A stretch of 64,000 bases of DNA from assembly GCA_028583605.1 (NCBI GenBank), contig CM053327.1:46300510-46364509 (forward strand), in the 5' to 3' direction. The stretch comes from Dastarcus helophoroides. Taxonomy: Eukaryota; Arthropoda; Insecta; Coleoptera; Bothrideridae. The notes below the pieces were generated by a model. It saw only the letters and a list, made by a program, of their open reading frames with translations. It was not told where the DNA came from and made no database searches. The translations under genes were made by a program, and so were the position numbers. Shown in pieces: positions 14,973 through 63,659 of the stretch; positions within the stretch are counted from its first letter, which is position 1; each line of letters opens with the position of its first letter.

Positions 14973-14984
14973 ATTTAATTGAGG

Positions 14985-43000: not shown

Positions 43001-46000
43001 AGGGCCAAGAACCCTACCGCTGACTGGTGCAACTACCAGTCTCAGTTTTAAAAAGGAAACAAAAATAAAACAAAATAAAAAATACAAAGACAAGAAGACG
43101 AAAAGGAAATAAAGCGCATTCGCTTCATACAAACATTTTCATTTTCTTAAGGTCGATGTTAGTGTTCTGCTGTTGGAAGCTGAGTTTCCAGGGGTTCCAA
43201 AATAATTTATACCCATCACCACAAAGGTCCGGTAACTGGCAGCAGACACATATATTTGGGTTTTACTGATGATGTTCTGCAAGTTCTAGAAACGTGGGCA
43301 TTGTACACCTTAACATCCTAGAAGCATAAGCCACAATGAGCTCTTACCTAGTTCTTGTTTTGGTGTATTCACCTAGTGCTACCTCATTCGCAGATTCTCC
43401 TTCGTAGGTTGCTTGAATCCCAAAAATATAGGACAAGACAACCTGGCCCAAAGAAAGCCTTATAGATCTGTTGACAAATGGGGAGTACTAACGTAGGTGA
43501 ACGCGCAGTATCAGCATCAGCTCTCGTTAGGGAGGTGTTTTGATGAAAGAAATGAGAACTTCTTGCCAGTTTCTAACTTTAATTTCAATGTTTTGTGCTA
43601 AGTCAAGCTTAGCCACTTTCTAAGCCAGAAAATGTCCCTTTTATTAGACTAGTAGCCGTAGAAGTAGATGTAGTGTTGGAAGGGAAAATTCTGCTCAGAA
43701 AGTTTCTTCGAAATCTGAACAATATTTCTAGTCTATTTTATGACACTGGTTTGAGTTCGAATGATTGAGTTTGGTATGAGAAAAACAGAAAAACAAACAA
43801 AGGAACAAGTTAACAAAGGAATGAAAGAAAGAGTGAGAGAACGAGATCTGTAAGATTGAATCAACATTTATAAATTTGATTTATTACGATAAATTACAAC
43901 TTCATTTCCAAGCTTGAGTTCCATTTTGTCGTAGCATTATCCTTTGGATATTGTTAGCTCAAAGCTTTAACAGGAAACTGTATGCTATGTGAAGTATGCA
44001 TGAATTAAGAAGCGACAAAAACACACAAGAATTGGGGAATAAAACAGACACCTGAAAATAGTTTGAGAACCTCTGTGTACAAACTTACCAGCGAACACCC
44101 ACCGATAATCAGGTACAAAGTTAGCTGCATTTGGTTTGAAAACCTTTGAGTACAAACTAAATGGCTCAGCTGGGGAAAATATTGCGATTATTAGGGTTAA
44201 AATAAACTTTGGGAAATTAATAACCGACGCACCATATACAAGCGAAAGAGTTAAACAAAGAATGTCAGATTATTTGTGCTTAATAAATTCTCTTAATTTT
44301 CTAAAGAAACATTTCACTCAAATCTGTGTCCAGCAAATTTAAACAAGTTGAAACAAACAGGTTCACTTTTATTTTGTTGTATTATGTTTAAGAACACTTG
44401 AAAATCACAAAAGTGAAATTTTGTTGATTTATTTTTTGACCAATTGTAATAAAAGTTGAGGTCAATTGTTGTTTGAATTTGATAACACTTCCCTGTCGAC
44501 TCTACGAGCTGGGGTTACAATTTATTTAAATAAAATAATTTTAAACACAACGTAGACAAATTGGGTCCGAAAATCGAAGGTAAATTATTCTTCGAAAATT
44601 TTTAAAGATGAGCAAAATTCGACAATTTTGAAAAACTATATATATACAATCACTGGTTTTGGTCACAAACGGCTGCTCATCACAATACCTATTGTAATAT
44701 CTGTAATCCTAAATTTTAAGTCAGTTAAATAAGTAACTGATAATAGAATATACTTCTTCCGGGATTGGATCGGGATTTTTCTTTTCTTTGTTCCTGAAGA
44801 AGCCCCCTACGATGGTGGGCGAAACGTCGAACACTTTTAGTAGTTCTTTGATATGGTCCAATCCCGGAAGAAGTATATTCTGTACTGACTCTAGCCATGG
44901 AAGCCTTCGTTATCACAAGTAACTGATAAACTAATGATTTTTTTTTTTGGTGTAATGAACTGGTCCTTGGTTATCTTCAAAAATTGAAATACACAACTTG
45001 CCTCCTTGGTTTCAGAGAACAAGTTCTGTATTTCAAACTAATAATAAATGATAATGATAATAAGAATCTTAATTATCAGCAGGACGGAATGTTTATTATA
45101 AAGATCGATTTGCTCAACATAAAGGGAATCGAATAATAATTGTAAGACTTCCATAAGGACAGGCAAAAATGGTTATTGTTAAAATCAACGAAGTTTGATA
45201 ATAGCTACAGGATATACTTCTTCCGGGATTGGACCGTGTCAAAGAACTACTAAAAGTGTTCGACATTTCGCCCACCATCGTAGGGGGCTTCTTCGGGAAC
45301 AAAGAAACAATAAATGAAAAATAAAATACAAGGAAATATACAAAAATGAAAAAAGGGGCCAATTTCAAAACATCAGAGCACGATAACTCAGTATGTCCAC
45401 CATACCAGAGGCGAAACTCTTCTGAATTGAAAATTGGTACAAAGGATAAGAATGTTTAGACCGAAGAGCACGGTAACTCAATATGTCCACCATACCAGAG
45501 GCGAAACTCTTCCAAATTGGAAATTTGTTACAAAGGATTAGAAAGTTTAGACAGAAGAGCTCGGTAACTCAGTATGTCCACCATACCAGAGGCGAAACTC
45601 TTCTGACAGGAAAGAGGGAAAGGGAAACTTTATATACCACGCGTCTGTGCGATCACTTCCGAAGATTTCCGATGGTTGGTTTCCAGATGGAGGAAAACAT
45701 GTAACCTTCGTCTCTGTTGATGTTATTGGGGAATTTTTGGATTTCGATGGCCTCGCGTATCTTCCTATTATAGTAATTAGGGAATATTGGATATAATTGA
45801 AATATTATCGAAGAGAATCTTATGTCCGGTCTCATGTTGATGTTCGGCAATGGCTGACTGCGAAAATAAACCAGACCTAAGACACCTTTGGTGCTCGAAT
45901 ATTCACGTCTTAAATGATCGCCCCGTTTCTCCGATGTACACTGAACCACAAGAACAAGGAACCCTATACACGCCATTAGAACAAAAGGATGAAATTTTAT

Positions 46001-49000
46001 CTTTGGGAGATGGAAGGAGCTGTTGGATCTTTGAGGATGATGAAAAAATGGGTTTAATGTTGTGTTTTCTCAATAATTTTCCGATTTGATCTGTTACTCC
46101 GTGAACATACGGAAGAAAGGCTTTAGAAGAAACTATTGAATTTTGTGAAGGACGAGGGGTAGGGTGAAAATGTCGTTTAATGACAGTTTCAATGTCGTGC
46201 GATTTGTAACCATTGTTGCGGAGGTTGAAACGAATATTGTTCAACTCGTCTGAAAGATTTATTGGTTGTGAAATTGCTACAGCTCGTGAAACCAGTGAAT
46301 TTATGACGGAACGTTTTTGGGAAGGGTGATGATGGGACTCTGCATGCAAATAACGATTAGTATGGGTGGGTTTTCGATAAACGGAATGAGAAACGCGACC
46401 GTTTGGTAAACGAGTGACCAGTACGTCAAGAAAAGGAAGAGAACCATTGTTTTCGATTTCCATAGTGAAGCTAATAGAGGAATGTAAACTGTTTAGGTGT
46501 TCCAAAAATAAATTTAGTGAATCCTTGCCATGTGACCATACAATAAATGTGTCATCTACATACCGAAGCCAAACCTTGGGTTTTAAATCTGCAGTTTCCA
46601 ACGCAGTGTTTTCGAAAGATTCCATAAAAATGTTTGCTACGACTGGGGATAAGGGAGAACTCATCGGGGTGTCGGAGACTTGTTTGTAGAAACTGCCATT
46701 AAAAGAAAAATAAGTCGATGTGAGGCACATTTCAGTTAAATCAGCTAGAGAATCTGCATTCTCTTTGCCTGAAAGTAATTGACGAATTATCGTCATGGAG
46801 TCGGAAACTGGGACGTTTGTGAATAGTGAAGTGACGTCAAAACTTACTAATATGTCGTTGGGGTCTAGGGTTAATTCGGACAATAATTCGACAAAGTGTT
46901 TGGAATTTAGGATGTGTGATGATGTGTTTCCGGTATATGACTTGAGGATGTTAGATAAGTATTTCGAGACATTGTAGGTAGGTGAATTTATCGTGCTGAC
47001 AATGGGCCTAAGAGGAATATTGGGTTTGTGAATTTTGGGGAGACCATAAAGACGAGGTGGTTTGGATTCTTTCGGAACAAGATGTCTGAGAGTGTCTGCG
47101 GGCAAATTTGAGGATTTTAGTTTCGACTTTAGTTCACGTTCAATTTTGCTTGTTGGGTCCTGAGGAAGAGGAATATAGAATCCGTCATTTAACAGGGCGT
47201 TAATTTTGGATGCATACTCGGATTTATCCAAGATGACAGTTGCATTACCTTTGTCAGCCGAAAGAATAGTGATTGAAGAATCTGTTTTTAGGGTTTTAAG
47301 GGCACATCTTTCTTCTCTAGAAATGTTGGACTTTAGTGGTTTGGCATGTTTTAGAATTTTTGTGGTTTGAAAACGAATGGGATCTGCAACCTCCTTGGGG
47401 AAGAGTTCTGATGGAAGACTCTACCGCACTGATTATTTCTTCAGTTGGAATTTTTCTTGGGGCGACAGCAAAATTCAGTCCTTTGGATAAGATGGTCTGT
47501 TCGTTATCCGATAGTGGACGGGAAGACAAATTGACTACTGTTTTTGAGACTGAACTATGAGTTTTGACCTTGGGACTTAGGGATTCGAATTTCTTCTTGT
47601 GTTTCAGATTTTTTAATTCAAAGGTTTTTTCGAATTGATTATAGGATATGGCGTCGAAATGACTCCAATGTTCAACCGACAACCTACTCGAAAGTTCCAG
47701 ATGGAGTTCGAGCAATTGTCGGGAAAATTGATAATAGCTTGATTCTGGAAAAAAATCATTTAGAATTAAGGCACGAACATTCTAAAAAAAAAACTAAGAG
47801 CTGCAAACTCTTGGGCCTTAGTCCTTTCAGATGAGAAGGAAGGCGAGTGTTTACACTCCTTGTTCATGTCTTTGCCCCTGAATTATACAAATAAACCCCT
47901 GACGAAGACGGGGTATCAGCTAGTTCACTCAGACGAAGATTTGGGTATCACCCAGTGAACGTTAGAAATACATAAAAGACATGTTATTGTTATTGAAGAC
48001 GCGGGTATCAGCTAGATCACTCAGACGAAGATGCGGGTATCAGCCAGTTAACGCTTCCTACTCGCAGTGCTTAAAGGCATAATGTGGTTATTTTTTTTTA
48101 AGTTTAATCCGCTCGCAAAGGGTAACCCCATTATACTTTCAAATCAGTGCGAGTAGGATGCGGAAACAAAGATAAATGGCGATGAACCTCATTCTTAAAA
48201 AAGGATAGATTGTAGATTTTGGAAAAAATTCCTTTTGGTCACAAGTTCCATAACTTGGAAGTTCTATGGAAAAAAGAGTCTCCCTAGACAGAAGTCCTCA
48301 CTGCATCAAGCTGGACCGCACAGGAATTTGCTGTTTCCGACTGTCCTGTATGCCTCAAGAATCTTGCCCTTGGGGGGTCGTAGCTAGTACGTCTCAGGAA
48401 TCTTGGGGGGATCAATCCTATTAGTTCCTGGGAGCATTTTCCATGATAGTACTTGTAGAAAAGAAACAAGTCACCAACCATAGGCCCGTGTTCTAGTGTT
48501 TCGAGAGAATCAGTCAGACTCTCGTCATCAGTTAGGCGAATCGCTCTTTTTTGAATTGAATCCAAGAGAGCTAAAGTGTGTTTTGGGGCTGAACTCCATA
48601 GTTTTCAAGGTGGCAGATCGTCATCTTATTCTATCAAAGTCAATTCATCGTCATCGTCAACCAGTTCTGAGTTTTTAACTTCCTTCTTTATCTTTAAAAA
48701 TGATAACTTCCATTTTCTTCGCAAGTTTCAAATCATTCGTGATTTCAGATCTGCTAAATCGAGACTCTTGCTTAAAAGTGATAAATTCGTTTTAAAATCT
48801 GTTTTGCCTTGAAGAAACCCAATCTTCTTCTTCTTCCAGGAGCTGAATTTCTCAAAGAAGGAGCGTTTTAGTCAGAGTCTCTGGTTTTAGTGCACACCAA
48901 AGTTCTAATAAGGCACACAAAATCGAACTACGATATTTCGCTCATTTGATGATAAAGAGCTTCAAAAAAACCGCCAATTAATCAACTAACTGCTGAATTC

Positions 49001-50975
49001 TGGATTTGGTGTGGGTTGTCTAAGAGTCAGCACTTGGGCTTTTTGGGCCCATTGTCCGAAGTGCTAGGAATTTTTCTATGGAAGTTTACAAATCGAAACA
49101 ATTCTGGGGCCCCGTTTGCAAATATTTACATTTTTAAGTAATGGAAGTGGACACTATTCTGAAGTATTGTCAACTTTCATTATGCAAGAAGAATGCAAGC
49201 TAGACTACAAATTCATGCAGCCCTCCAGGCGGCGTGTATAGTGATAGATAGCTGAACTACCAACAGTTGAAACACTGCCACCTAGCGAAGCGGTTGCTCT
49301 CTAGGAAAGTTCCCAGAAGACAAGGATTCTAATGCACAGGTCAATAGGTTTGAACATTTATTAGATTCGAAGTTGGTGGAAACCAAATACCGGTTTCGAT
49401 CTTGTTAGATCTCTACCAAACTGACGAGATCTAAGAAAATCGAAACCGGTATTTGGTTTCCACCAACTTCGAATCTAATAAATGTTGAAACCTATTGGTC
49501 TGTGCATTATGGAACTTTCATTACTAAAAATTTAAATGTTTCCAAACTGTGTCGCAGAATTATGCGAAAATGTTAAATAAAACCAATGGCGGCTGGTCTT
49601 AAAGAGCGCAAGAGCGCGCGCTCCTCGTGAAATGAGCGATCTATTCTTTTCTGTTTAATGTAAAAGACTTGGATTTGTCACATTTTTAAACACAAAATAA
49701 TGACATATTACACATAATAATACTTGTGAATGATTTGGAATCAAATACACCAACGTTTGATTCCGTTATACATATTAAATATTATAAGGAAATTTAAAAT
49801 TGTGCGCGCAGAATTATGCACTTAGCGTGGCTGCCGTGCTATGCCTATCAACGGTCTTCACGGGATACGGAGAAATAAACTACAGAACACCACGTTAAAG
49901 CTAGCCCGGGGTACGCCGCTCCGCGCATGTGCGATATTGCCAAATGGTGAGTACGAGTCAGAGTTTGGAGTGTGTAGTTACGTTCATGATGCTAAATGCG
50001 TAGGTCCCGGCTGATCTGATTGCGATTGCTAATTGTGCCGCTTCCAGGCCTAACTGCCAATAGTACCGCTATTCACAAAGAGATAGCAGTACCCATTCTA
50101 GGGTCTAATTATTCATTTATAGATTTGGATTTAAACAATTTTGTTGTGAAAGTAATGAAAACTTTATTTCTTTAAAAGATCGTAGAGCGGATTTTGTTTT
50201 AAATTTTTTTTGTGTGTTTTTGTAGAGTTTAATTAGAACCTTGTAATAAAATATATTTTATTTTCAAATGCAGTTTTCATGAAATGGGGATTATAAGATG
50301 GTAATTAAATTTAATTCGTAAAAATACTATTAAATATCACACCTTTTGTGTCACTTTTGTTTCTCTGAAATTTAATATCTTGCTATGACACTGGAGCCAC
50401 CTAAACTCTTAACTACTAATATTTTTGCATCTGCGCACCCCCTGTCAAAAAGTCACCAGCCGCCACTGAATAAAACTATTAATGTTTCTGACCAAATACA
50501 GTTTGAATATGATAACGAAGGCTTCCACGGACAGAGTCAGTACAGGATATACTTCTTCCGGGATTGGACCGTATCAAAAAACTACTAAAAACGAACACTT
50601 TTAGTAGTTCTTTGACACGGTCCAATTCCACAGTCTAAAATTAAAAATAATCGAAACAAGTTAATTGTGAAGCACAATTACTTCTTCGTGATAGTTAATA
50701 TTTAATTATACTTCCTCATAGGTTAATTTTCTGCAGCCTAACCTTTTTCTTGTTTGCTTCCCCTACAGATCCATACGATGAGGTCGACTGCACATCTATC
50801 GATTTGTTTTCTGTTGCATTACTTGCGAATTCAAACGATTCTTCAACTGTCACTTTCTGTTCCAAAATTTCCAGTGGAATTTCTTTAAAACTCGTTAATG
50901 TACAAATAACGCACACAATAAATATAATTGTTATCAGTGTAAATACTGCTTTTACGTGTCCCCCGAGCATGTTAC
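18836..50975 (-). CDS. SLC45-family (proton/sugar symporter) transporter, partial at 5' end
   Basis: Five minus-strand exons join with correct GT-AG sites and phases: 50975-50743, 35281-35039, 34912-34782, 27080-26906, 19066-18836. They encode about 337 residues ending in a stop codon. Family signatures: LGGHVKAVFTLITIIF, CLTNLFSWMAHVCYSLYFTD, DFVGEAVF, GVMYSTLFTMPYLLIAHYH, RGLGTDVAIISSMVFLAQ. SLC45 members are 12-TM major-facilitator proteins moving sugars with protons; this part covers roughly TM6 to TM12 plus a hydrophilic central loop. The 50975 exon begins in mid-codon, so upstream exons with the N-terminal half exist; I could not find them up to 64000. Introns of 15.5, 0.13, 7.7 and 7.8 kb are filled with satellites and transposons. 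SLC45A1/Slc45-1-like is likely; the exact paralogue is uncertain. Confidence 0.9.
20054..21336. repeat. Higher-order duplicated block, copy 1
   Basis: About 1.28 kb of the satellite, covering several unit variants including the same sub-repeat counts and point variants, recurs at 23111-24393 with a constant offset of 3,057 bp. Only isolated differences were seen, for example GCACCAGAGC against GCAACAGAGC near 20362. Confidence 0.85.
23111..24393. repeat. Higher-order duplicated block, copy 2
   Basis: Near-identical partner of 20054-21336, offset 3,057 bp. Similarity ends where copy 1 reads AAGGTTCAAC and this copy AAGGTTGCAAC. It points to a recent duplication or unequal exchange in the array. 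Confidence 0.85.
26018..26162 (-). mobile_element. Family B hammerhead-like element, minus orientation
   Basis: It runs from the family end TTTGATGGAACGGACTGGTC through the CCCTGAAACCAAGAAAGATT section to the hairpin (CTGAAGA, GACAG..CTGTC stem, GAAACGCGTTAG on the minus strand). The pairing partner for stem I is changed (TGACTAACGC), so cleavage ability is questionable. A partial plus-oriented copy follows at about 26330-26425 and a short fragment at 26762-26824. Confidence 0.75.
26906..27080 (-). CDS. SLC45 transporter, internal exon
   Basis: Acceptor AG at 27082-27081, donor GTAAGT from 26905. It encodes RKIYVLGLLTDCLGMCLMAL and GVMYSTLFTMPYLLIAHYHS, covering TM9-TM10 region helices of the major-facilitator fold. 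It begins with one base completing a Gly codon from the 34782-34912 exon. Confidence 0.93.
27081..29930. other. SLC45 intron, first part: AT-rich with MITE scraps
   Basis: Near 27186-27313 are ends containing TGGATCCACATCAAT and a GTAACCAGGGGGAGGGGG terminus typical of non-autonomous hAT-like elements. From 27600 to 29800 the sequence is AT-rich and degenerate, full of TTTCGA/AAATTT words with no longer structure I can define. No gene seen. Confidence 0.45.
29931..30229 (+). repeat. Interstitial TTAGG telomere-like array 1
   Basis: About 60 copies of TTAGG, the canonical insect telomere repeat, with scattered variants (TTACG, TTAAG, TAGAT, TTACATT). It lies inside an intron between SLC45 exons, so it is not a chromosome end. 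It is bracketed by AT-rich modules containing CATACAAAACTGCAGG and GAATATCTTTCGAG. Confidence 0.95.
30394..30633 (+). repeat. Interstitial TTAGG array 2
   Basis: About 48 TTAGG copies with the same kinds of variants, in the same order as parts of array 1 (TTAAG, then GTATAGG, then TTACGTTACG, then TTACATT). This shows it arose by duplication with its flanks and not by independent telomere addition. Confidence 0.95.
30796..31060 (+). repeat. Interstitial TTAGG array 3
   Basis: Third array of the series with about 53 units. The flanking module (GAGCACTTTCTATAGGCATT) recurs at 29833, 30297 and 30701, spacing about 464 and 404 bp. The three arrays are therefore a higher-order repeat whose length differences come from TTAGG copy number. 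Confidence 0.95.
31367..31607. mobile_element. MITE with TGGATCCACATCAAT-type inverted ends
   Basis: A 241-bp element. Left end TGGATCCACATCAATAAAAT; the right end is its inverse with a few changes (complement begins TGGATCCACGTCAAT). Both continue into GTGTTG...GTTGTATT. No ORF. The same terminal sequence is present at the right edge of the 16-bp minisatellite element at 34.7 kb, so both belong to one family. Confidence 0.7.
31865..34722. mobile_element. TIR element carrying a giant 16-bp minisatellite
   Basis: The left flank of the minisatellite (about 31865-31921) and its right flank (about 34647-34706) are inverted copies: both contain GGTCACAAAAAGTTGGGTT or its complement immediately outside the array. 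The outer right end reads TTTTTATTGATGTGGATCCA, matching the MITE at 31367-31607. The array is thus the expanded interior of a MITE-family element. The left outermost end has diverged. Confidence 0.75.
31922..34646. repeat. 16-bp minisatellite, about 170 copies
   Basis: Unit TTTGAAGACAAGTGTC in near-perfect head-to-tail copies. Each unit holds 6-bp inverted arms AAGACA/TGTCTT around AG. Variants are grouped: GACAAG up to about 34175, GACGAG with TTTGAA to about 34287, GACGAG with TTTCAA to about 34605, then GACAAG again. A 5-bp slip interrupts the phase near 33484. Because 16 is not a multiple of 3 and one strand lacks stop words, all three minus frames stay open for up to 799 codons; these are not genes. 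Confidence 0.97.
34782..34912 (-). CDS. SLC45 transporter, internal exon
   Basis: Acceptor CAG at 34915-34913, donor GTAAAA from 34781. It encodes APLDSPERSLYEEGIRFGCW followed by GMSMYSLSCALYSLIIEKLI, an extracellular loop and TM helix of the SLC45 fold. It is separated from the next upstream exon by only 126 bp, the one compact intron of the gene. Confidence 0.92.
35039..35281 (-). CDS. SLC45 transporter, internal exon
   Basis: Acceptor AG at 35283-35282, donor GTAAAT from 35038; 81 codons, phase 0 at both ends. It begins HPFDLSKRSESESKEIRRQR, a polar cytoplasmic loop, then carries the highly conserved CLTNLFSWMAHVCYSLYFTD and FVGEAVFNGSPT (TM7 and following loop). Confidence 0.93.
35282..35769. 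other. Start of 15.5-kb SLC45 intron
   Basis: At 35325-35450 a 17-bp unit (CATATTTTGGTAAATC) is tandemly repeated about seven times. A short AATCTTGTCCCCTGAA fragment of family B lies near 35650. No gene seen. Confidence 0.6.
35770..36232 (+). pseudogene. LINE reverse transcriptase fragment
   Basis: Translation with frame changes gives NWDFEIILEWGKNNLVDFNA then SKTQAAVFSKK and NASTNFSWDDHVRAIGKSA. This is the region downstream of the RT catalytic domain in Jockey/CR1-like insect non-LTR elements. An internal duplication of TCAAGGGATAATGCAACA is visible. It is truncated at both ends with stop codons and is not functional. Confidence 0.75.
36343..38577 (+). mobile_element. DD41D Tc1/mariner-like transposon, copy 2 (potentially intact)
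   Basis: 2,235 bp flanked by TA (36341-36342 and 38578-38579), the expected target duplication. The two ends are inverted copies over about 423 bp (36343-36765 and 38155-38577), far longer than typical mariner termini. The outermost sequence is CAGGATGTTACAAAAGTCCG at the left and the complement of CAGGGTGTTAC at the right. It encloses one uninterrupted transposase gene. It is inserted in the degenerate AACCTTGAAAGTATCC repeat region, which resumes on its right. Confidence 0.93.
36983..38053 (+). CDS. Transposase, IS630-Tc1-mariner superfamily, DD41D
   Basis: 356 aa, single exon, no internal stop. The N-terminal part (about residues 1-55) and residues 70-125 look like two helix-turn-helix DNA-binding modules; the second includes VSTRQLALAEGVNHVTIWRI. 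The RNase-H-like catalytic domain follows, with Asp157 in LFTDEAGF, Asp248 in MHDGAPAH and Asp290 in SPDLNPLDFYLWG. Exactly 41 residues separate the last two aspartates, which defines the DD41D class and not DD34E/DD34D. All three catalytic residues are present. The start ATG lies about 215 bp inside the left TIR boundary. It would bind the long TIRs and cut and paste the element at TA. It could be active. Confidence 0.93.
   Translation: MDYSNQEMADMHLMYGLANCNRAEARRLYAERFPNRHLPGEKLFQKIHARLCETGNFVFKGERVGRPNAEVANLEERVLQRVEEDPCVSTRQLALAEGVNHVTIWRILKFYQFYPYHFQRVQGLLAADYPPRIEFCNWLLHKIAENENFPSLILFTDEAGFTRNGILNFHNMHQWQVENPNAVIQSRHQQHFSLNIWGGIIGDSIIGPFFLPHRLTGASYRHFLQTELPVLLENVPLITRQRMWIMHDGAPAHFSAVAREFLNNNYHQRWIGRGGPIPWPARSPDLNPLDFYLWGHLKQIVYSTPVDNINDLRQRIENGFNQIHNTPGICERVRSSLRRRAEQCLAAGGSNFEHLL
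38580..39560. repeat. 182-bp tandem repeat
   Basis: Units aligned on GAGTTAACCTTGAAAGTATCC begin near 38899, 39081, 39263 and 39445, an exact 182-bp period. Degenerate earlier copies reach back to 38680. Each unit is itself built from 30-40-bp sub-repeats of the type CCTTGAAAGTATCATATTGC. Related sequence also lies left of the DD41D insertion at 36330. No coding potential. Confidence 0.85.
39645..40860 (+). pseudogene. LINE C-terminal RT fragment, split by a hAT element
   Basis: The part after the insertion reads, with frameshifts, YCSHVWRSAPKYSLALLDSI, RAIRLINDESLTDSLERLEH, MVGDLSLFYKYYHGRCSQEL and TGLIPPRGRF. These are hallmarks of the C-terminus of Jockey/CR1-like LINE polymerases. The sequence ends in an A-rich tail near 40847. 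The short left part (GAAGCTCAGGTTAG, Glu-Ala-Gln-Val-Arg) precedes the insertion at 39683. Degenerate and non-functional. A (GAGA)-rich slip near 40405 breaks the frame. Confidence 0.75.
39683..40323. mobile_element. hAT-like non-autonomous element, 641 bp
   Basis: Perfect 21-bp inverted termini (39683-39703 and 40303-40323) beginning CAGAGACTAAATAGACTG. It is flanked by the exact 8-bp direct repeat GCCAACAC (39675-39682 and 40324-40331), the target duplication size of hAT transposases. No ORF. It is nested inside a LINE fragment, which is continuous when the element and one target copy are removed. Confidence 0.9.
41027..41171. mobile_element. Family B palindromic insertion lacking the hairpin
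   Basis: Flanked by the 12-bp direct repeat ATCAATTGATAA (41015-41026 and 41172-41183). Its left half (CAGAACTTGTTCCCTGAAAC onward) is the inverse of its right half, meeting at AAA-CC-TTTGTTGTG with almost no spacer. The right arm continues to the family end GTCCGTTCCATCAAA. The hammerhead-like hairpin that normally lies at the centre is absent. Confidence 0.85.
41283..41313. repeat. (AAG)n microsatellite
   Basis: About ten AAG triplets in a row inside the large SLC45 intron. Confidence 0.9.
41314..44730. other. Mostly single-copy intronic sequence
   Basis: 3.4 kb of the large SLC45 intron with little visible repetition. I checked for coding, RNA and transposon signals and found none I can support; small open frames (for example 44136-44342) have no recognisable features. 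Confidence 0.45.
44744..44916. mobile_element. Family C short element (Penelope-LTR-like) with hammerhead
   Basis: A 173-bp insertion flanked by the 13-bp direct repeat AAGTAACTGATAA (44731-44743 and 44917-44929). Its ends are inverted copies of each other (AGAATATACTTCTTCCGGGA at the left, TCCCGGAAGAAGTATATTCT near the right), with the hammerhead motif between them. The right end continues into CCATGGAAGCCTTCGTTATC. Related segments lie beside the Penelope-like element at 45195-45305 and at 50505-50640. Confidence 0.8.
44790..44832 (+). ncRNA. Hammerhead-like ribozyme motif (family C)
   Basis: Order of elements: GTTC (stem I), CTGAAGA, one extra A, GCCC...GGGC stem II with a 10-12-nt loop, GAAA, palindromic mini stem III ACGT, H17 = C giving the preferred GUC cleavage triplet, then GAAC pairing with GTTC. 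Position 7 (A) is tolerant in hammerheads. The single extra nucleotide between A9 and stem II departs from the consensus, so activity must be tested. Confidence 0.6.
44951..45037. mobile_element. Family B fragment, inverted pair
   Basis: AACTGGTCCTTGGTTATCTTC then GAAATACACAACTTG, followed directly by the opposite-strand segment CTTGGTTTCAGAGAACAAG and TCTGTATTTCAA. The flanks ACTAATGAT and ACTAATAAT resemble a target-site duplication. No hairpin core remains. Confidence 0.55.
45195..45305 (-). repeat. Family C / Penelope-like terminal sequence, degraded hammerhead
   Basis: On the minus strand this repeats the family C order (GAAGAAGCCCCCTACGATGG, then GTGGGCGAAATGTCGAACAC, then the TTAGTAGTTCTTTG and CCGGAAGAAGTATATCC segments). 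The core is mutated (CCGAAGA for CTGAAGA; AUGU for ACGU), so it is probably inactive. It lies next to the 3' end of the Penelope-like coding remnant, in the same orientation. Confidence 0.65.
45377..45610. repeat. 90-bp tandem repeat downstream of Penelope-like ORF
   Basis: Three copies with a 90-bp period, each containing ATGTCCACCATACCAGAGGC then GAAACTCTTC (near 45393, 45483 and 45573). It lies on the 3' side of the retroelement ORF and may be part of its untranslated region. Confidence 0.8.
45640..47760 (-). pseudogene. Penelope-like retroelement: reverse transcriptase + GIY-YIG nuclease, decayed
   Basis: The longest intact part, 47231-45903, encodes 442 aa with RT features: [59 protein letters not shown] (catalytic Asp-Asp at about 46555) and PFLDVLVTR. 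It ends with VPCSCGSVYIGETGRS, the start of the C-terminal GIY-YIG endonuclease. That fusion is diagnostic of canonical Penelope-like elements. A stop at 45901-45903 and a frameshift break the nuclease, whose remainder (AIAEHQHETGHK) is readable in another frame to about 45640. A frameshift near 47380 separates the N-terminal part, up to about 47750. In the B motif the usual Gly before SPLSP is Ser. Not functional as it stands. Confidence 0.88.
47761..48084. other. Sequence between Penelope-like element and LINE fragment
   Basis: It contains repeated phrases of the type ACGAAGATGCGGGTATCAGC (near 47910-48050, three or four diverged copies) and probably represents element UTR or a small repeat. 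No gene seen. Confidence 0.4.
48085..48600 (-). pseudogene. LINE C-terminal RT fragment
   Basis: Minus-strand translation includes MDSIQKRAIRLTDDESLTDS, LETLEHGPMVGDLFLFYKYY and HGKCSQELIGLIPPR. It is closely related to the fragment at 40370-40860 (same family, same 3' end with GCGAGTGGATTAAACTT and an A-rich tail). It is truncated and frameshifted; a small internal duplication near 48360-48420 repeats the PPR segment. Confidence 0.75.
48601..49171. other. Intronic sequence without recognised features
   Basis: Moderately AT-rich, low repetition. TCATCGTCATCG-type triplets occur near 48650. Nothing supportable as a gene. Confidence 0.4.
49183..49512. mobile_element. Family A retrozyme-like insertion with internal inversion
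   Basis: Flanked by the 11-bp direct repeat AACTTTCATTA (49172-49182 and 49513-49523). The left two-thirds run in minus orientation, from TGCAAGAAGAATGCAAGC through the middle section to the hammerhead. At 49412/49413 the sequence switches to plus orientation and reads through a second hammerhead to the end GTCTGTGCATTA. It has the same termini as the copies at 14985 and 55732. Confidence 0.85.
49415..49457 (+). ncRNA. Type I hammerhead motif (family A), stem II damaged
   Basis: ACCAAA, CTGACGA, GATCT, then GAAACCGG, T-A17 and TTTGGT are intact. The 3' strand of stem II is altered (AAAATC instead of AAGATC), weakening the helix by one pair. An abutting minus-strand hammerhead (49382-49412) lacks its CTGACGA strand because of the orientation switch. 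Confidence 0.65.
49584..50468. mobile_element. hAT-like non-autonomous element, 885 bp
   Basis: Exact 8-bp target duplication AATAAAAC (49576-49583 and 50469-50476). Terminal inverted repeats CAATGGCGGCTGGT and CAGTGGCGGCTGGT (from the other strand), one mismatch. No transposase ORF. The interior contains a GC-richer island at about 49800-50110. The CAGTGGCGG start and 8-bp duplication are characteristic of hAT elements. Another fragment starting CAGTGGCGGTTGG lies at about 51583. Confidence 0.9.
50505..50640. repeat. Family C fragment
   Basis: It contains AACGAAGGCTTCC, ATACTTCTTCCGGGATTGGA and the inverted pair ACTACTAAAAACG/AACACTTTTAGTAGTTC from the Penelope-LTR-like family C. The hammerhead core itself has been deleted at the inversion. 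Confidence 0.7.
50743..50975 (-). CDS. SLC45 transporter, most upstream exon found
   Basis: Acceptor AG at 50977-50976; donor GTTAGG from 50742. It encodes GNMLGGHVKAVFTLITIIFI then VCVICTLTSFKEIPLEI, the TM6-type helix and FREIPL-like motif of the family, followed by an acidic/Ser-rich cytoplasmic loop (SFEFASNATENKSIDVQSTS, SYGSVGEANKKK). It starts with two bases of a split codon, so it is not the first exon. Confidence 0.92.
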
Positions 50976-51740: not shown

Positions 51741-52033
51741 TTATGACATTTAAAAAACTATTTTTAACTTTGATCAAAATCACATTTTTGAAAACTAATT
51801 TCTGTAAAAGTATTGAGGAAGAATATGCAAGAAGAATGCAACCTAGACTACAAATTCATGCAGCCCTCCCAGGCGGCGTGTATAGTGAATCATAAGGTAG
51901 CTGAACTACCAACAGTTGAAACACTGCCACCTAGCGAAGCGGTTGCTCTCTAGGAGAGTTCCCAGAAGACGAGAATTCTATTAATGCACAGACCAATAGG
52001 TTTGAACATTTATTAGATTCGAAGTTGGTGGAA

Positions 52034-52076
52034 ACCAAATACCGGTTTCGATCTTGTTGGATCTCGTCAGTTTGGT
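52034..52076 (-). ncRNA. Type I hammerhead ribozyme (family A, array unit 1)
   Basis: Minus strand: ACCAAA, CTGACGA, GATCC/AGATC stem II with AACA loop (one weakened pair), GAAACCGGTA, TTTGGT. All core nucleotides are intact. Predicted cleavage is immediately 3' of the A complementary to position 52040. Extended stem I pairing is retained outside these limits. Confidence 0.85.
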
Positions 52077-52396
52077 ATATCCAACTCGAATGTTAATAAA
52101 TGTTCCGACAAGTAAGTACTAAAACATTCACAGGCGTCAAGCGAGTGACTCTTTAGTGCTACCACCTATTGGTCCATAGAGAAACTATGGCCATCGCCAA
52201 CAATGTCGTATGCAACCTAAACAACAAATTCATGCAGCCCTCCAGGCGGCGTGTATAGTGATAGGTAGCTGAACTACCAACAGTTGAAACACTGCCACCT
52301 AGCGAAGCGGTTGTTCTCTAGGAAAGTTCCCAGAAGACAAGGATTCTAATCCACAGACCAATAGGTTTGAACATTTATTAGATTCGAAGTTTGGAA

Positions 52397-52439
52397 ACCA
52401 AGTACCGGTTTCAATCTTGTTAGATCTCGTCAGTTTGGT
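52397..52439 (-). ncRNA. Hammerhead (family A, array unit 2), one core substitution
   Basis: As unit 1, with GATCT/AGAT stem II. The base before GAAAC is changed (TTTCAATCTTG on the plus strand, giving AAGATTGAAAC), turning the G10.1-C11.1 pair into G-U, and stem I reads CTTGGT. Probably weaker than unit 1. Predicted cleavage at 52403, 363 nt from the other site. Confidence 0.75.
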
Positions 52440-52699
52440 ATATCCAACTCGAATCCTAATAAATGCTCCGACAAGTAAGTACTAAAACATTCACAGGCGT
52501 CAAGCGAGTGACCCTTTAGTACTATTGGTCCATAGAGAAACTATGGCCATCGCCAACAATGTCGTATGCAAGAAGAATGCAACCTAGACTACAAATTCAT
52601 GCAGCCCTCCAGGCGTGTTATGACATTTAAAAACTATTTTTAATTTTGATCAAAATCAGATTTTTGAAAACTAATTTTTGTAAAAGTATTGAGTAAGAA

Positions 52700-54030
52700 G
52701 TCAATATTTCGAGCAGGAATTAAAATGTTAAGAAAAAAACTCAAATTTCTTTGAAAATGTCAACTTTTTGAGAAAATAATTACAATTTCAAGAAAAAATC
52801 TAAATCCAACTCATCTCGCATTTTACTATTTCTCTAAAACATAAGTTTATGCGTTATCTTCGAAATGTTACCTCGACTTTTTTCGCAAATGCCGATTTTT
52901 TTCTCGAAATTTTGTCTTTTTTGCAAATTTCGACTTTTTTTCTTGAAATTTCGACTTTGTCCTCGAAATTTTGGCTTTTTTCTCGAAATTTTGGCTTTTT
53001 TCTTAAATTTCGACTTTTTTCTTAAAATTTCGACTTTTTTCTCGAAATTTTTCACCTCCTTCTCGAATTTCATTTTTTTCTCGAAATTTCGAACTTTTTC
53101 TCGAAATTTTGATCTTAATATCGAAATTTCGACATTTTCCTGGAAATTTCGACTTTAAACTCTTCGAATTTTTACCCCAAATCCCCAAATGTATAAAAAT
53201 TTTGAGTTTTTTTTTCAAATATTTCGATTTTTTTAGGAAATTTTGATTTTTTCTGCAAAGTTTCCATTTTTCCTAAATATTTAATATAAAGAAATTTTCT
53301 CGAAATTTCCATTTTTCCTGAAAGTGTTATTCTTAAAATTTCTTCTAGAAATTCCAACTTCTCCAGATTTTTCTTTGTGTTCCTCTAATTTGCTCTAAAA
53401 ATGTCAAGTTTTTTCACGACACTTTGACAATTTAAAGTTCATTTTATTTTGTAGATTTGACAAAAAATGTTTGGAAAAAAAAGCTCTATAAAAATTTCAA
53501 CATTTTGGGAAAAACAAAAAATTTCGACTTTTTTGTAAAGATATTTCAAATTTTTTTTCAAATTTCGATTTCTTTCTCCAAGAAATTTTGGTTTTTTTTC
53601 CCTACGCAATTTGTGTTTTTTCCTAAACATTCTATGCAGAGAATTTTTTTAAAATTTCGACTTTTCCTCGATATTTTGTCTTTAAAATATTTTTTCTTGT
53701 AGAAATTTTAATTTCTCTCTAATTTATTTTGAAAATTTAAAAGTTTTCTAACGAAATTTTAAAGTTCATTTTATTTTGTAATTTTAATAAGAATCTGAAA
53801 ATTAGTAAGTATAAGTTTAGGGAAAGCTATTAAGTATAAGTTTAAGGAAAATAAACTTCAAATCTGCATAAAAATAAGAAAACTTTGCGAAAAATATTGA
53901 AATTTCAAGAAACAATGAACCTTGTAAATTTCAACCTTTTTTACAATTTGATATTTCTCAACAAAATTACTGCTACTGTAGGACCAAAGGAAATTCTGAT
54001 TCGGAATTTCCAATTTTCCTAGAAATGTTA
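52700..54030. other. AT-rich degenerate TTTCGA repeats
   Basis: 52860-53650 is an almost continuous run of CTCGAAATTTCGACTTTTTT-type words, poorly phased (about 15-20 bp). Long open frames rich in Phe/Lys are by-products. No gene seen. Confidence 0.6.
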
Positions 54031-54037
54031 AATTTAT

Positions 54038-54228
54038 CCTTTTGATGGAACGGACTGGTCCTTGGTTATCTTCAAAAATAGAAATACAGAACTTGTCCCC
54101 TGAAACCAAGAAAGATTAAAAAGTAGTTTCTCTCTGAAGATGACAGCTTGACTGTCGAAACGCGTTAGCCAGTAACCTTTGTTGTGTTTTTTAATCTTTC
54201 TTGGTTTCAGGGGACAAGTTCTGTATTT
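54038..54228. mobile_element. Family B insertion with target duplication and inversion
   Basis: Flanked by AAATTTATCCTT at about 54026-54037 and about 54229-54240. It starts with the family end TTTGATGGAACGGACTGGTC in minus orientation, switches to plus at about 54122 just before the hammerhead-like hairpin, and ends at TTCTGTATTTCT. The hairpin has one stem change (GACAGC...GACTGTC). Confidence 0.8.
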
Positions 54229-54364
54229 CTAAATTTATCCTTGAAATTCTCAAATTCGAATTTAAAATTCAAATGTCGATATGAAAAAAGATCGAAGTTT
54301 AAAAATTAAACTCAAAATTTCAAGCGAAAGCAGATTATATTTCTAAAAAAGTTGAAATTTCTTT

Positions 54365-54960
54365 TGATGCAACGGACTGGTCCTTGGTTATCTTCAAAAA
54401 TTGAAACACAGAACTTGTCCCCTAAAACCAAGAAAAATTAAAAAACACAACAAAGGTTGCTCTAACGCGTTTCGACAGCCAAGCTGTCATCTTCAGAGAG
54501 AAACTACTTTTTAATCTTTCTTGGTTTCATGGGACAAGTTCTGTATTTCTATTTTTGAAGATAACCAAGGACCAGTCCGTTCCATCAAAAGTTTCTCTTC
54601 TTTCAGTTTCTCTCTGAAGATGACAGCTTGGCTGTCGAAACGCGTTAGAGCAACCTTTGTTGTGTTTTTTAATTTTTCTTGGTTTCAGGGGACAAGTTCT
54701 GTGTTTCAATTTTTGAAATTTCTTATTAGTAAACAACATTTTTCAAAAAAAAATAGCATTTTCGGAATTATAAAACACAACAAACGTTGTTCTAACGGGT
54801 TTCGACAGCCAAGCTGTCATCTTCAGAGAGATACTGATACAGCAGTGATACAGTATCTCTCTGAAGATGACAGCTTGGCTGTTGAAACGCTTTAGAGCAA
54901 CGTTTGTTTTGTTTTTTAATCTTTCTTGATTTTAAGGGACAAGTTCTGTATTTCAATTTT
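54365..54960. mobile_element. Cluster of family B elements in alternating orientation
   Basis: Successive minus (54368-54505), plus (54505-54590), plus (54600-54720), minus (54775-54835) and plus (54855-54960) copies. Intact hammerhead-like motifs are at 54460-54500 (-) and 54610-54650 (+). The 54840 copies carry TGTTGAAACGCTTTAG and are damaged. Confidence 0.75.
54610..54650 (+). ncRNA. Hammerhead-like ribozyme motif (family B)
   Basis: Order: CTCT (stem I), CTGAAGA, one extra T, stem II GACAGC-TTG-GCTGTC (six perfect pairs), GAAA, palindromic mini stem III ACGCGT, H17 = T, then AGAG pairing with CTCT. Identical motifs lie at 60850-60890 (+) and 63391-63431 (+), and on the minus strand at 54460-54500, 60379-60419, 60700-60740 and 61178-61218. 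The extra base before stem II matches family C. Activity is untested. Confidence 0.6.
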
Positions 54961-55560: not shown

Positions 55561-55731
55561 TAAAATACAAATCTTGTTCCCTCAATTTCTACGCGATTCG
55601 ATAGCCAAGCTATCATCTCCAGAGAGATATCAGTATCTCTCTGAAGATGATGATAGCTTGGCTTCAAGGGATAAGAATTTTGTCGTTGTTGTTGACGAAA
55701 TTTCCCAAAAATATTTTTCTTCACATTTTTA

Positions 55732-56052
55732 TGTGCAAGTAGAATGCAACCTAGACTACAAATTTATGCAGCCCTCCAGACGTGAATTTGTAGTCTAGGT
55801 TGCATTCTAATTGCATACGACATTGTTGGCGATGGCCATAGTTTCTCTATGGACCAATAGGTGGTAGGACTAAGAGTCACACGCTTGACGTCCGTGAATT
55901 CTTTAGTACTTACTTGTCCTTGTCGGAACATTTATTGGCATTCGAGGTGGATATACCAAACTGAGGATATCTAACAAGATCGAAAGCGGTATTTGGTTTC
56001 CAAACTTCGAATTTAATAAATGTTCAAAGCTGTTGGTCCGTGCATTAGAATC
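55732..56052 (+). mobile_element. Family A retrozyme-like insertion, degenerate hammerhead
   Basis: Flanked by the 10-bp direct repeat CACATTTTTA (55722-55731 and 56053-56062). It begins in minus orientation (TGCAAGTAGAATGCAACC), inverts near 55783, continues in plus orientation and ends CGTGCATTAGAATC. The hammerhead region at 55955-55997 is broken (CTGAGGATATC for CTGACGAGATC, GAAAGCGG for GAAACCGG), so it should not cleave. Confidence 0.8.
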
Positions 56053-56159
56053 CACATTTTTACTCATTTCCTTCACATTCCGATTCAATTCACAAAAAAT
56101 AAACGAATTTGGGAAAGTTAACATTTTAGGGAAAATCTAGTTGCAAGGAAAAACATTAA

Positions 56160-59759: not shown

Positions 59760-60055
59760 TCGTCCTACACATAAATCTGTGTTTGAAATGAGTCTATGTG
59801 CCTAAAATTCTATGACAACGGCGAAGCCACGCCCATAACATCTTCTATCGCGTCCTTAGCAACCAAGGGCACACGTCGTTTCCGCGCAAACATCGCTCAT
59901 AATCCTAATGATCCTATCGTGCGCAACTAATCTGCCCGAGCGCGTGATCCATCCCAAGCAAATGACTCCACGATAGTGACGTAGCCGCTTCGACGGGTAA
60001 TTCCCCAAACTATTAATATAGAATATTAACGAATTGATTCGGTTCCTCGTTCCAC
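59760..60055. promoter_or_regulatory. GC/CpG-richer island, candidate regulatory region
   Basis: An abrupt roughly 300-bp stretch with clearly higher GC and many CpGs between AT-rich satellites. Visible words: TGACGTAG (CRE-like), GGGCGTGGC on the minus strand (KLF/Sp-like), and CCTTAGCAACCAAGG (an imperfect palindrome resembling an RFX X-box half-site). No ORF. It could be a promoter or 5' exon of the upstream-incomplete minus-strand SLC45 gene, or a remnant of another element. Confidence 0.35.
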
Positions 60056-60065
60056 CTAGCTGAAG

Positions 60066-61620
60066 AGGTGGCTGTTGAAACGCTTTAGAGCAACGTTTGT
60101 TTTGTTTTTTAATCTTTCTTGGTTTCAGGGGACAAGTTCTGTATTTCTAAATTTATCCTTGAAATTCTCAAATTCGAATTTAAAATTCAAATGTCGATAT
60201 GAAAAAAGATCGAAGTTTAAAAATTAAACTCAAAATTTCAAGCGAAAGCAGATTATATTTCTAAAAAAGTTGAAATTTCTTTTGATGCAACGGACTGGTC
60301 CTTGGTTATCTTCAAAAATTGAAAACACAGAACTTGTCCCCTGAAACCAAGAAAAATTAAAAAACACAACAAAGGTTGCTCTAACGCGTTTCGACAGCCA
60401 AGCTGTCATCTTCAGAGAGAAACTACTTTTTAATCTTTCTTGATTTTAAGGGACAAGTTCTGTATTTCTAAATTTATCCTTGAAATTCTCAAATTCGAAT
60501 TTAAAATTCAAATGTCGATATGAAAAAAGATCGAAGTTTAAAAATTAAACTCAAAATTTCAAGCGAAAGCAGATTATATTTCTAAAAAAGTTGAAATTTC
60601 TTTTGATGCAACGGACTGGTCCTTGGTTATCTTCAAAAATTGAAAACACAGAACTTGTCCCCTGAAACCAAGAAAAATTAAAAAACACAACAAAGGTTGC
60701 TCTAACGCGTTTCGACAGCCAAGCTGTCATCTTCAGAGAGAAACTACTTTTTAATCTTTCTTGGTTTCAGGGGACAAGTTCTGTATTTCTATTTTTGAAG
60801 ATAACCAAGGACCAGTCCGTTCCATCAAAAGTTTCTCTTCTTTCAGTTTCTCTCTGAAGATGACAGCTTGGCTGTCGAAACGCGTTAGAGCAACCTTTGT
60901 TGTGTTTTTTAATCTTTCTTGGTTTCAGGGGACAAGTTCTGTATTTCTAAATTTATCCTTGAAATTCTCAAATTCGAATTTAAAATTCAAATGTCGATAT
61001 GAAAAAAGATCGAAGTTTAAAAATTAAACTCAAAATTTCAAGCGAAAGCAGATTATATTTCTAAAAAAGTTGAAATTTCTTTTGATGCAACGGACTGGTC
61101 CTTGGTTATCTTCAAAAATAGAAATACAGAACTTGTCCCGCGAAATCAAGAAAGATTTAAAAACACAACAAAGGTTGCTCTAACGCGTTTCGACAGCCAA
61201 GCTGTCATCTTCAGAGAGATACTGATACAGCAGTGATACAGTATCTCTCTGAAGATGACAGCTTGGCTGTTGAAACGCTTTAGAGCAACGTTTGTTTTGT
61301 TTTTTAATCTTTCTTGGTTTCAGGGGACAAGTTCTGTATTTCTAAATTTATCCTTGAAATTCTCAAATTCGAATTTAAAATTCAAATGTCGATATGAAAA
61401 AAGATCGAAGTTTAAAAATTAAACTCAAAATTTCAAGCGAAAGCAGATTATATTTCTAAAAAAGTTGAAATTTCTTTTGATGCAACGGACTGGTCCTTGG
61501 TTATCTTCAAAAATTGAAATACAGAACTTGTCCCGCGAAATCAAGAAAGATTTAAAAACACAACAAAGGTTGCTCTAACGCGTTTCGATGGCCAAGCTAT
61601 CATCTTCAGAGAGATACTCT
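60066..61620. repeat. Tandem composite of family B elements and a 150-bp linker
   Basis: A linker starting AAATTTATCCTTGAAATTCT and ending TTTTGATGCAACGGACTGG recurs at about 60149, 60470, 60949 and 61344, and once at 54229. It alternates with family B inverted pairs. Spacings are about 321, 479 and 395 bp. Linker copies are nearly identical, so the block was amplified recently together with its family B insertions. Confidence 0.85.
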
Positions 61621-62279
61621 CTGCAATTTGTATTTCAATCTGTAAAGCTATAGAATTTAACATTCAGGACACATTTCTTACTGGGCATTGAAAGTGTTTA
61701 CAACGACCGTATAATGTGTCCAAGAAAGCCCGAAACCGGTCCTCGGTTGTATTGTAAATATTTTCAACTGTAATACGTTTAACGGTTGAAATACATCTTA
61801 TGTTACATAAAGTAGTTTATTTATTTGATTACTGGAATTGTGTCCACTTAGTGGTCCTAATGCACAGACCAATAGGCTTGAACCATTTATTAGTTTCGAA
61901 TTGGAAATCAAAGACAGGTTTCGATCTTGTTAGATCGAAATCGGTCTTTGGTTTCCACCAATTTCGAATCTAATAAATGTTCAAACCTATTGGTCTGTGC
62001 ATTAGAATCCTTGTCTTTTGGGAACTTTCCTATAGAGCAACCGCTTCGCTAGGTGGCAGTGTTGAACTTTTGGTAGTTCAGCTACCTATGATTCACTAGA
62101 CACGCTTAGAGGGTTGCATGAATTTGTAGTCTAGGTTGCATTCTACTTGCATACGACATTGTTGGCGATGGCCATAGTTTCTCTAAGGACCAATAGGTGG
62201 TAGTACTAAGAGTCATACGTTTGACGTCTGTGAATTTTTTAGTATTTACTGAACATTTGTTAGCATTCGAGTTGGATAT

Positions 62280-62322
62280 ACCAAATTGACGAGATCTAAC
62301 AAGATCGAAACCGGTATTTGAT
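62280..62322 (+). ncRNA. Hammerhead (family A), C3 mutated
   Basis: Same layout, but the core reads TTGACGA instead of CTGACGA, replacing the essential C3. The second stem I strand is TTTGAT instead of TTTGGT. Expected to be inactive. Confidence 0.7.
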
Positions 62323-62649
62323 TTCCAAACTTCGAATCTAATGTTCAAACCTATTGGTCAATGCATTAGAATCCTTGTCTTCTGGGAACTTTCCTAGAGA
62401 GCAACCGCTCCGCTAAGTGGCAGTGTTTCAACTGTTGGTAGTTCAGCTACCTATGATTCACTAGACACGCTTAGAGGGCTGCATGAATTTGTAGTCTAGG
62501 TTGCATTCCACTTGCATACGACATTGTTGGCGATGGCCATAGTTTCTCTATGGACCAATAGGTGGTAGTACTTAGAGTCACACGCTTGACGTCTGTGAAT
62601 TTTTTAGTACTTACTTGTCGAAACATTTGTTAGCATTCGACTTGGATAT

Positions 62650-62692
62650 ACCAAACTGACGAGATCTAACAAGATCGAAACCGGTATTTGAT
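62650..62692 (+). ncRNA. Type I hammerhead ribozyme (family A)
   Basis: ACCAAA, CTGACGA, stem II GATCT/AGATC with AACA loop, GAAACCGGTA, TTTGAT. The core is intact; one stem I pair is lost (G to A in TTTGGT). Predicted cleavage after 62686. Confidence 0.8.
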
Positions 62693-62898
62693 TTCCAAAC
62701 TTCGAATCTAATGTTCAAACCTATTGGTCAATGCATTAGAATCCTTGTCTTCTGGGAACTTTCCTAGAAAATAACCGCTTTGCTAAGTGGCAGTGTTTCA
62801 ACTGTTGGTAGTTCAGCTACCTATGATTCACTACACGCCTGGGAGGGCTGCATGAATTTGCAGTCTAGATTATATTCTACTTGCGTTCTATTTAGTGG

Positions 62899-63360
62899 GC
62901 CAAAATTGCAAAGTTATTGCAGTTACATTTGAACGTTTTTCGTTCTGATATTTGATATAGACGAGTTGTGTATTTCCCTCGTATAACACCCTTGCAATGT
63001 CAAATTACAAGACGAACTATTTGGAAAGTTTCGGGCAAACATAACCACCACCTTTGTAAGTAGCAGGAGTTTGTTTCAAGGAGAATGGCTTTAATTGTAA
63101 TTAACTTATATTGTTTGTTACTGTTATAAACCTCATTGACCAATTTGTTGTTTAATGCACATGCCAAAAGTTCATAATTTAACCAAACAGTTAACCCACA
63201 AATTGGATTGTTGTGGTGTGTGTGTCACTGTGCCATTTACGAGGATATGCATTATGCAATTTTGAAAACTCTACAATACACACAATATACATTTCTATAC
63301 AACATAACAACGAATTAGTAAAATGATATTAGTTTAAAACATATCCACTGAAGAATTCTG
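62899..63360. other. Single-copy sequence, no gene recognised
   Basis: Little repetition; TGTGTGTGT-like and CACACAATATACA words appear near 63215 and 63280. Nothing supportable as coding or RNA. Confidence 0.4.
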
Positions 63361-63370
63361 ACCCAAAAAT

Positions 63371-63527
63371 TGAAACACGAGAAACTGTTTCTCTCTGAAG
63401 ATGACAGCTTGGCTGTCGAAACGCGTTAGAGCAACCTTTGTTGTGTTTTTTAATTTTTCTTGGTTTCAGGGGACAAGTTCTGTGTTTCAATTTTTGAAGA
63501 TAACCAAGGACCAGTCCGTTCCATCAA
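63371..63527 (+). mobile_element. Family B element, nearly complete, intact hammerhead-like motif
   Basis: It starts with a short inverted piece (AAAATTGAAACAC), then turns forward into the hairpin (63391-63431) and runs to the family end AGTCCGTTCCATCAAA. The flanks TTCTGACCCA (about 63356) and TTCTGACTCA (about 63529) match at 9 of 10 positions, a likely target-site duplication. Confidence 0.8.
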
Positions 63528-63659
63528 ACTTCTGACTCAAGGGATAAACTATCAACGCAATTTTATTAAGCAACTCTTTTTATTACTTATAGTGCTGAAC
63601 TGCAGTAGTTAGTAAGTCACGCCAAGATGAGGATAAAAAACTCCTGGTCATAACATTTT

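Follow-up and report, generated by a model that had tools for sequence, protein, structure and literature searches.

The window examined here is a 64,000-nt stretch of the genome of the beetle Dastarcus helophoroides (assembly GCA_028583605.1, contig CM053327.1, positions 46,300,510 to 46,364,509). It carries three families of short repeats with hammerhead ribozyme (HHR) cores, designated A, B and C, together with a truncated Penelope-like element (PLE). Eighteen CTGANGA..CGAAAC cores were counted in the window against 0.17 expected by shuffling, and those at 15164, 26121 and 31692 lie beyond the range named in the initial annotation (44725..63540). Words common to A, B and C are limited to 9-14 nt. 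Inspection of the sequence by eye gives the palindromic mini stem III as ACCGGT, ACGT or ACGCGT. The annotation's proposal of three HHR families without mutual similarity, flanked by target duplications, was confirmed, and its five direct repeats are all present and adjoin elements. Its description of the units needed revision: the three families are real, but the A unit measures about 370-374 nt and several copies are multimeric, while the B and C copies, also real repeats, are usually composed of two opposed arms. One further core (CTGATGA..CGAAAC, 48498-48531, minus strand) lies outside the three families.

Further copies were sought in the 538.9-Mb genome (50 contigs). The searches scored the best places only, and the samples are skewed toward high similarity. 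For the PLE, the best 85 of 3815 first-look candidates were scored and 30 loci fetched; for the first C and A searches, the best 40 of 2252 and the best 40 of 2738 were scored. The C loci were retrieved by a head-to-head query and make up 36 stretches (40 places minus 3 in the window, with 2 merged into one), and C matches inside a satellite at 19-25 kb were removed before the counts. The A sample comprised 30 loci, 4 of which repeated one insertion and were removed before the counts, leaving 26. A second, tail-free C query yielded 403 first-look candidates, the best 40 of which were scored and five loci fetched. Exact-pattern scans of viral contigs gave no match, and Rfam miRNA matches in the window were, in our judgement, hairpin artefacts of the head-to-head copies.

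Composition of the three families

Judged by its genomic context, family B is the pseudo-long terminal repeat (pseudo-LTR) of a PLE, because at least one B match occurs in 28 of the 30 PLE loci fetched from the best 85 of 3815 places, and because the start ATG of both PLE open reading frames (ORFs) inspected lies within the B ribozyme. The HHR in the pseudo-LTR overlaps the ORF start, and a tail is optional. The two ORFs are intact (807 and 808 aa, N-terminus MVGETSNTF), so that intact-looking PLE ORFs do exist in the same genome. RVT_1 was found in both ORFs and in the window copy, telomerase reverse transcriptase matches for the PLE ORFs were weak (E about 0.1), and a GVY..YIG..GR string, noted by eye in the PLE ORF, may be the GIY-YIG endonuclease motif.

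The window copy of the PLE (45207-47727, minus strand) had been annotated as a Penelope-like reverse transcriptase remnant. It is present, but it proved to be a 5'-truncated copy with a broken frame, intact relatives elsewhere in the genome and its own 12-bp duplication, TTGATAATAGCT (45195-45206 / 47728-47739). Its RVT_1 match lies within 45903-47417 on the minus strand (E 4.2e-9), and a B arm forms its end (45206-45315, minus). Just 3' of the ORF, at 45370-45620, about three tandem repeats can be seen by eye. Two other B copies were resolved. The first, two-armed (44744-44916, plus; core 44794-44825), consists of a 25-nt antisense arm followed by an HHR arm with tail, between 13-bp repeats AAGTAACTGATAA (44731-44743 / 44917-44929). 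The second (50510-50629) is a head-to-head copy without an HHR, with a minus arm covering +7 to +87 and a plus arm covering 0 to +37; its sense arm begins at the cleavage site, and it has no clear duplication (score 5).

Family C is very probably a PLE pseudo-LTR as well, as its HHR, ORF-start and tail features and its two 3' ends suggest. Stem II contains an ATG from which a frame of about 42 codons stays open through the tail, an arrangement shared with a lizard PLE (PMC11167929, as described in its available text). No C-type reverse transcriptase was seen in the fetched loci, which were not searched systematically for one. The family is recent: 22 of the 40 scored places, the window's own included, are identical across the 105 nt of the second query. 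In the window, C is represented by a one-armed copy (8953-9056, minus; 9-bp repeat TTTAGAGAT, 8944-8952 / 9057-9065) and by head-to-head copies at 31628-31836 (13-bp repeat with one mismatch, 31615-31627 / 31837-31849), at 41027-41170 (without an HHR; 13-bp repeat (C)ATCAATTGATAA, 41014-41026 / 41171-41183) and at 54042-54229 (core 54134-54161, plus; 13-bp repeat (T)AAATTTATCCTT, 54029-54041 / 54230-54242). The last repeat recurs four more times at 60-61.4 kb, where the C locus is repeated with its flank. A three-arm copy (54364-54712; cores 54469-54496 minus and 54614-54641 plus) has a tail on the left and none on the right, and is bounded by the 12-bp repeat TTGAAATTTCTT (54352-54363 / 54713-54724), which has several other occurrences. 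The stretch 60069-61617 is a tandem array of C copies and flank, recognised by its repeated flank strings and arms, and does not represent independent insertions. A final copy (63367-63529, plus; core 63395-63422) has an 11-bp repeat with one mismatch (63356-63366 / 63530-63540; score 8). The satellite-like stretch at 19088-25178 contains many short decayed C pieces.

Family A is best read, from its sequence features, as a metazoan retrozyme: a non-autonomous, non-coding, circle-type element of about 374 nt. Several loci exceed one 374-nt unit, the longest copy reaching 1620 nt, and stops occur in all three forward frames of a window copy. The predicted circular fold (-109.9) is about 4.8 sd lower than that of 40 shuffles (-84.2, sd 5.4). 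CTGANGA stands immediately upstream of the stem II anchor in 38 of 47 A-locus anchors. Weak Hammerhead_HH9 matches extend over the full model at 25-35 bits, under the gathering score of 52; B and C in 44.7-63.6 kb gave no match to this model. The family thus has what is described for retrozymes: a type I HHR, a unit of 170-400 nt, tandem copies, no coding capacity and strong self-pairing.

The window holds several A copies. A plus-strand copy (14985-15254; core 15164-15189) lies between 12-bp repeats ATTTAATTGAGG (14973-14984 / 15255-15266), and a head-to-head copy (49183-49512; core 49421-49446, plus) between 11-bp repeats AACTTTCATTA (49172-49182 / 49513-49523), with one end at the long and the other at the short site defined below. 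A second head-to-head copy with long and short ends (55732-56052) is flanked by CACATTTTTA (55722-55731 / 56053-56062), which has one additional occurrence at 49679. A third (61855-62891, our locus L045; core 62656-62681, plus) includes a tandem sense arm, has short and long ends, and is flanked by TTAGTGG (61848-61854 / 62892-62898; duplication score 7). An antisense dimer (51824-52618, minus; core 52045-52070, minus) has one long-site end and no short duplication that we could find. By eye, a direct repeat of roughly 84 bp lies at its borders (approximately 51741-51830 / 52618-52707); at about 7 times the usual length, it would be either an exceptionally long target duplication or a repeat of greater age.

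Target duplications and outer ends

Direct repeats scoring at least 9 flank 9 of 20 window elements, compared with 10 of 380 mismatched pairs of left and right flanks; the remaining 11 of the 20 have no direct repeat reaching that score. This control test scored, at the 55.7-kb A copy, a repeat other than the flush CACATTTTTA. Among the loci sampled from the genome, the same threshold was reached by 18/26 A loci (45/650 mismatched pairs), 26/36 C stretches (67/1260) and 9/14 two-sided PLE loci (2/260). Duplications are mostly 9-14 bp across the families, with perfect examples of 9-13 bp in A (16 cases), 12-14 bp in the PLE (8) and 9-16 bp in C (19).

A and the PLE also have in common an AAY motif just outside the duplication. 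Counting only flanks with a non-A base beside the duplication, which corrects the bias from duplication extension, AAY was found in 12/33 A flanks (versus 0.089) and 6/13 PLE flanks (versus 0.083); the pooled counts before correction were 12/40 for A, 6/18 for the PLE and 9/60 for C, in which the motif is weak. Patterns picked on the PLE were tested on A, and the reverse, before the adjacent-base correction. On A, the PLE-picked patterns RRY (14/40, p 6.7e-5), RAY (13/40, p 1.5e-5), ARY (p 4.7e-5) and RRN (p 0.042) held.

Many copies are arranged head-to-head, so that both outer ends are RNA 3' ends, and these fall at two fixed sites, the nearer some 55-70 nt beyond HHR cleavage. Measured from the cleavage site, the duplication-resolved 3' ends of A lie 55-62 and 200-212 nt downstream, those of the PLE 50-65 and 86-88 nt, and those of C mostly 60-72 and 91-113 nt. 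The short site is about 58 nt past cleavage in A, 56 in B and 63 in C, a similarity that is suggestive only.

One end generally takes the short site and the other the long one. Among 30 A insertions (26 loci and 4 window copies), 13 are two-sided for 3' ends, and all 12 pairs that could be classified join one short to one long end, which has a probability of about 1.3e-4 under free mixing at the observed frequencies. Their inner junctions vary from locus to locus, which marks the pairs as independent events. One-armed A copies end at the long site in 13 cases and at the short site in 4; the latter include a mis-scored window copy (14981), whose 40-nt left arm had been filtered out and which is not among the 12. 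In the PLE, 14 of 30 loci are two-sided, and all 14 were scored as short/tail. Mixed pairs make up 35 of 40 in C, besides one unclassified and one one-armed copy. The C copies count for less, because a head-to-head query selected them and many share a junction. Of the five loci fetched with the tail-free query, L105, L106 and L108 are short/long, L107 has one of its ends at the cleavage site, and L109 is one-armed without a clear duplication.

Taken together, we consider it probable that PLE-type machinery inserts all three families: B, which is a PLE pseudo-LTR, C, which very probably is one, and the retrozyme A, which would be moved in trans. Although A carries no PLE sequence, its pairing and motif match those of the PLE, and the best explanation for this is mobilisation in trans by PLE machinery. 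Of the Penelope-type mobilisation put forward in the annotation, what stands is that B is the PLE's own end, that C likely is too, and that the anatomy of A supports it; HHR-processed ends as the recognised feature are not supported. In the proposed mechanism, HHRs would cleave transcripts into single units, which for A would be monomers or circles. A PLE protein would nick both target strands about 9-14 bp apart, favouring AAY just outside. Reverse transcription would then begin inside the RNA, at two sites that each keep a fixed distance from the HHR, one per strand and through contacts that we infer; the short site would serve one end and the long site the other, in line with the ends and pairing that the junctions show. 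Two cDNAs of variable length, for A up to about four units, would finally be joined head-to-head, or a single arm would be made.

Several observations weigh against this reading. The perfect duplications of A and of C fall slightly below those of the PLE in length (p 0.034 and 0.048). The AAY motif is not significant in C (9/48 versus 0.110, p 0.076), nor is AA alone (14/60, p 0.16), and of the five best PLE patterns, ARS does not hold on A (p 0.077). The long site of A (+204) is distant from that of the PLE (+87). The A pair left unclassified, at L070, ends aberrantly on the right and has a repeat of 29 nt; the PLE locus L098 is ambiguous, having four right-hand arms from which one was taken by best score; and 5 of the 40 C pairs are long/long, 2 of them in one locus. 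A Pfam search of the PLE ORFs returned no endonuclease match. Lastly, nearest relatives are 93-100% identical among PLE copies and 93-97% among A copies, so the youngest PLE need not, on these identities, be the element that moved A.

More tentatively, PLE integration may be obligately two-sited, with a dimeric enzyme, two RNA start sites and one of these primed per target strand. Unrelated circular ribozyme RNAs would then have independently gained such a site pair and been mobilised in trans, the ribozyme making the RNA unit and not defining the inserted ends. We hold this generalisation possible, with less confidence than the main reading above.

Alternative routes to the copies

Head-to-head copies could also arise by snap-back self-priming of a single cDNA, as is favoured for rotifer PLEs in the available text of PMC3846280. 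Many junctions do overlap palindromes (negative gaps; the C junction reads GAAACWGTTTC), although palindromes could equally aid the joining of two cDNAs. Self-priming predicts the same site on both sides, whereas short/long pairs were seen in 12/12 A insertions and, as scored, in 14/14 PLE insertions. A pairing of one short with one long site is consistent with a dimeric enzyme that holds both, and it speaks against simple snap-back, which we regard as unlikely.

LINEs (long interspersed nuclear elements) give duplications of this length, which counts in favour of such an element moving A, the inversions then representing twin priming. The authors who described retrozymes in metazoans also name LINEs as an alternative (PMC7229834, available text). 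Both outer A ends, however, fall at two fixed internal sites in 12/12 classified pairs, no poly(A)-type end was seen in A, and the A flank motif matches that of the PLE at both ends, which makes LINE-type mobilisation quite improbable. Equally improbable is that A is the pseudo-LTR of an unseen PLE. Its anatomy is the same as that of B and C, but its HHR is of canonical type and its head-to-tail multimers carry no ORF between units; with no open frame in the three forward frames of the window copy, we rejected this assignment; no search aimed at an A-type PLE was made.

The annotation had proposed that the enzyme recognises hammerhead-processed RNA ends, so that termini coincide with cleavage sites. 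The A copies argue against this. Of 17 outer 5' ends, not one comes within 10 nt of the cleavage site (one of the 17, window 14981, being a parsing artefact), and among the 43 5' ends listed, 2 are within 5 nt of it, with about 1.3 expected, in a list that holds one insertion twice; 3' ends, as given above, are 55-62 or 200-212 nt away. The 5' ends of A are scattered, and by these counts the termini of A are not determined by the ribozyme. In addition, ribozyme-dead lizard PLE RNA still inserts in vitro (PMC11167929, as far as its text was available). In B and C, a few ends coincide with or closely adjoin the cleavage site, namely window 26755 (-2), window 50592 (0) and the outer antisense end of L107. 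The recent C copy in L107 (positions 160-213) is flanked by a perfect 13-bp duplication; its outer antisense arm starts at the cleavage site, perhaps by priming on a cleaved RNA 3' end. Cleaved ends may be used occasionally in B and C. As a general rule, recognition of processed ends is highly improbable.

A separate cluster of A 5' ends, 8 of the 43 listed, lies at +337..+359 (L062, L068, L072 and the window copy at 49.4 kb), a span of 23 nt around the core upstream of cleavage, as if the ribozyme structure halts or turns reverse transcription there.

Spread of satellites by recombination with chance flanking repeats, which the C array at 60-61.6 kb, duplicated together with its flanks, might suggest, was rejected as having next to no probability, since dispersed loci have distinct duplications far in excess of the mismatched-pair controls.

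Elsewhere in the window, a TTC21-type gene lies at one end, and two very similar DDE transposase copies are found at 5496-6338 (minus) and 36917-38053 (plus), the latter with DUF4817 and DDE_3 matches, DDE_3 being slightly under the cut-off. A short-period tandem repeat at 31787-34883 reads as long open frames in several frames on both strands.

Relation to known retroelements

Minimal HHRs in PLEs reportedly act as dimers. The ribozymes of B and C, known here from sequence, resemble the minimal PLE HHRs of Cervera 2014 and Lunse 2017, as far as those sources were available, in their palindromic mini stem III.

The lizard PLE PAc (Frangieh 2024, PMC11167929) offers the closest biochemical comparison. 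According to the available text, it cuts and extends both strands, two internal start sites bound its genomic tail, an ATT motif is preferred, dimerisation is predicted, and RNA with a dead ribozyme is still inserted. The B-bearing PLE resembles PAc: its ORF begins in the HHR, a tail of about 31 nt is optional, there are two internal start sites, and the targets are AT-rich. In PAc, the starts lie 111-118 nt into the ORF and the HHR cuts 26 nt past the start codon, which therefore places the starts roughly 85-92 nt past the cut, like the +87 of B. The PAc study found start sites not to differ between strands, whereas the genomic copies here pair one site per end. Bdelloid Penelope elements (Arkhipova 2013, PMC3846280, available text) likewise have pseudo-LTRs in head-to-head orientation, of which one carries a tail, and the examples given show duplications of 8-10 bp. 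Self-priming is favoured there and no retrozyme is involved, whereas the pairing observed here argues for two initiations.

For metazoan retrozymes, mobilisation by PLEs was proposed from co-occurrence (Cervera & de la Pena 2020, PMC7229834). In the portion of that text available to us, the non-LTR retrozymes share with A a type I HHR, a unit within 170-400 nt, tandem copies, low GC, strong self-pairing and co-existing PLEs; circular RNA was shown for them, whereas family A is known here from DNA. Neither "inverted" nor "head-to-head" is used in that portion. To this description are added a pair of fixed 3' ends, each used once per insertion, and a motif in common with a PLE. A literature search at the level of titles and abstracts, beyond which most papers were left unchecked, found no report of such junctions for a retrozyme.

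The enzyme that moves animal retrozymes has so far, in the sources available, been argued from co-occurrence, and the junctions described here supply insertion-site evidence. The same test (two start sites at fixed positions, each represented once in an insertion, and a common nick motif) is usable in any genome. Moreover, the short/long rule constrains how Penelope elements, which are poorly understood retroelements, make and join two cDNA ends.

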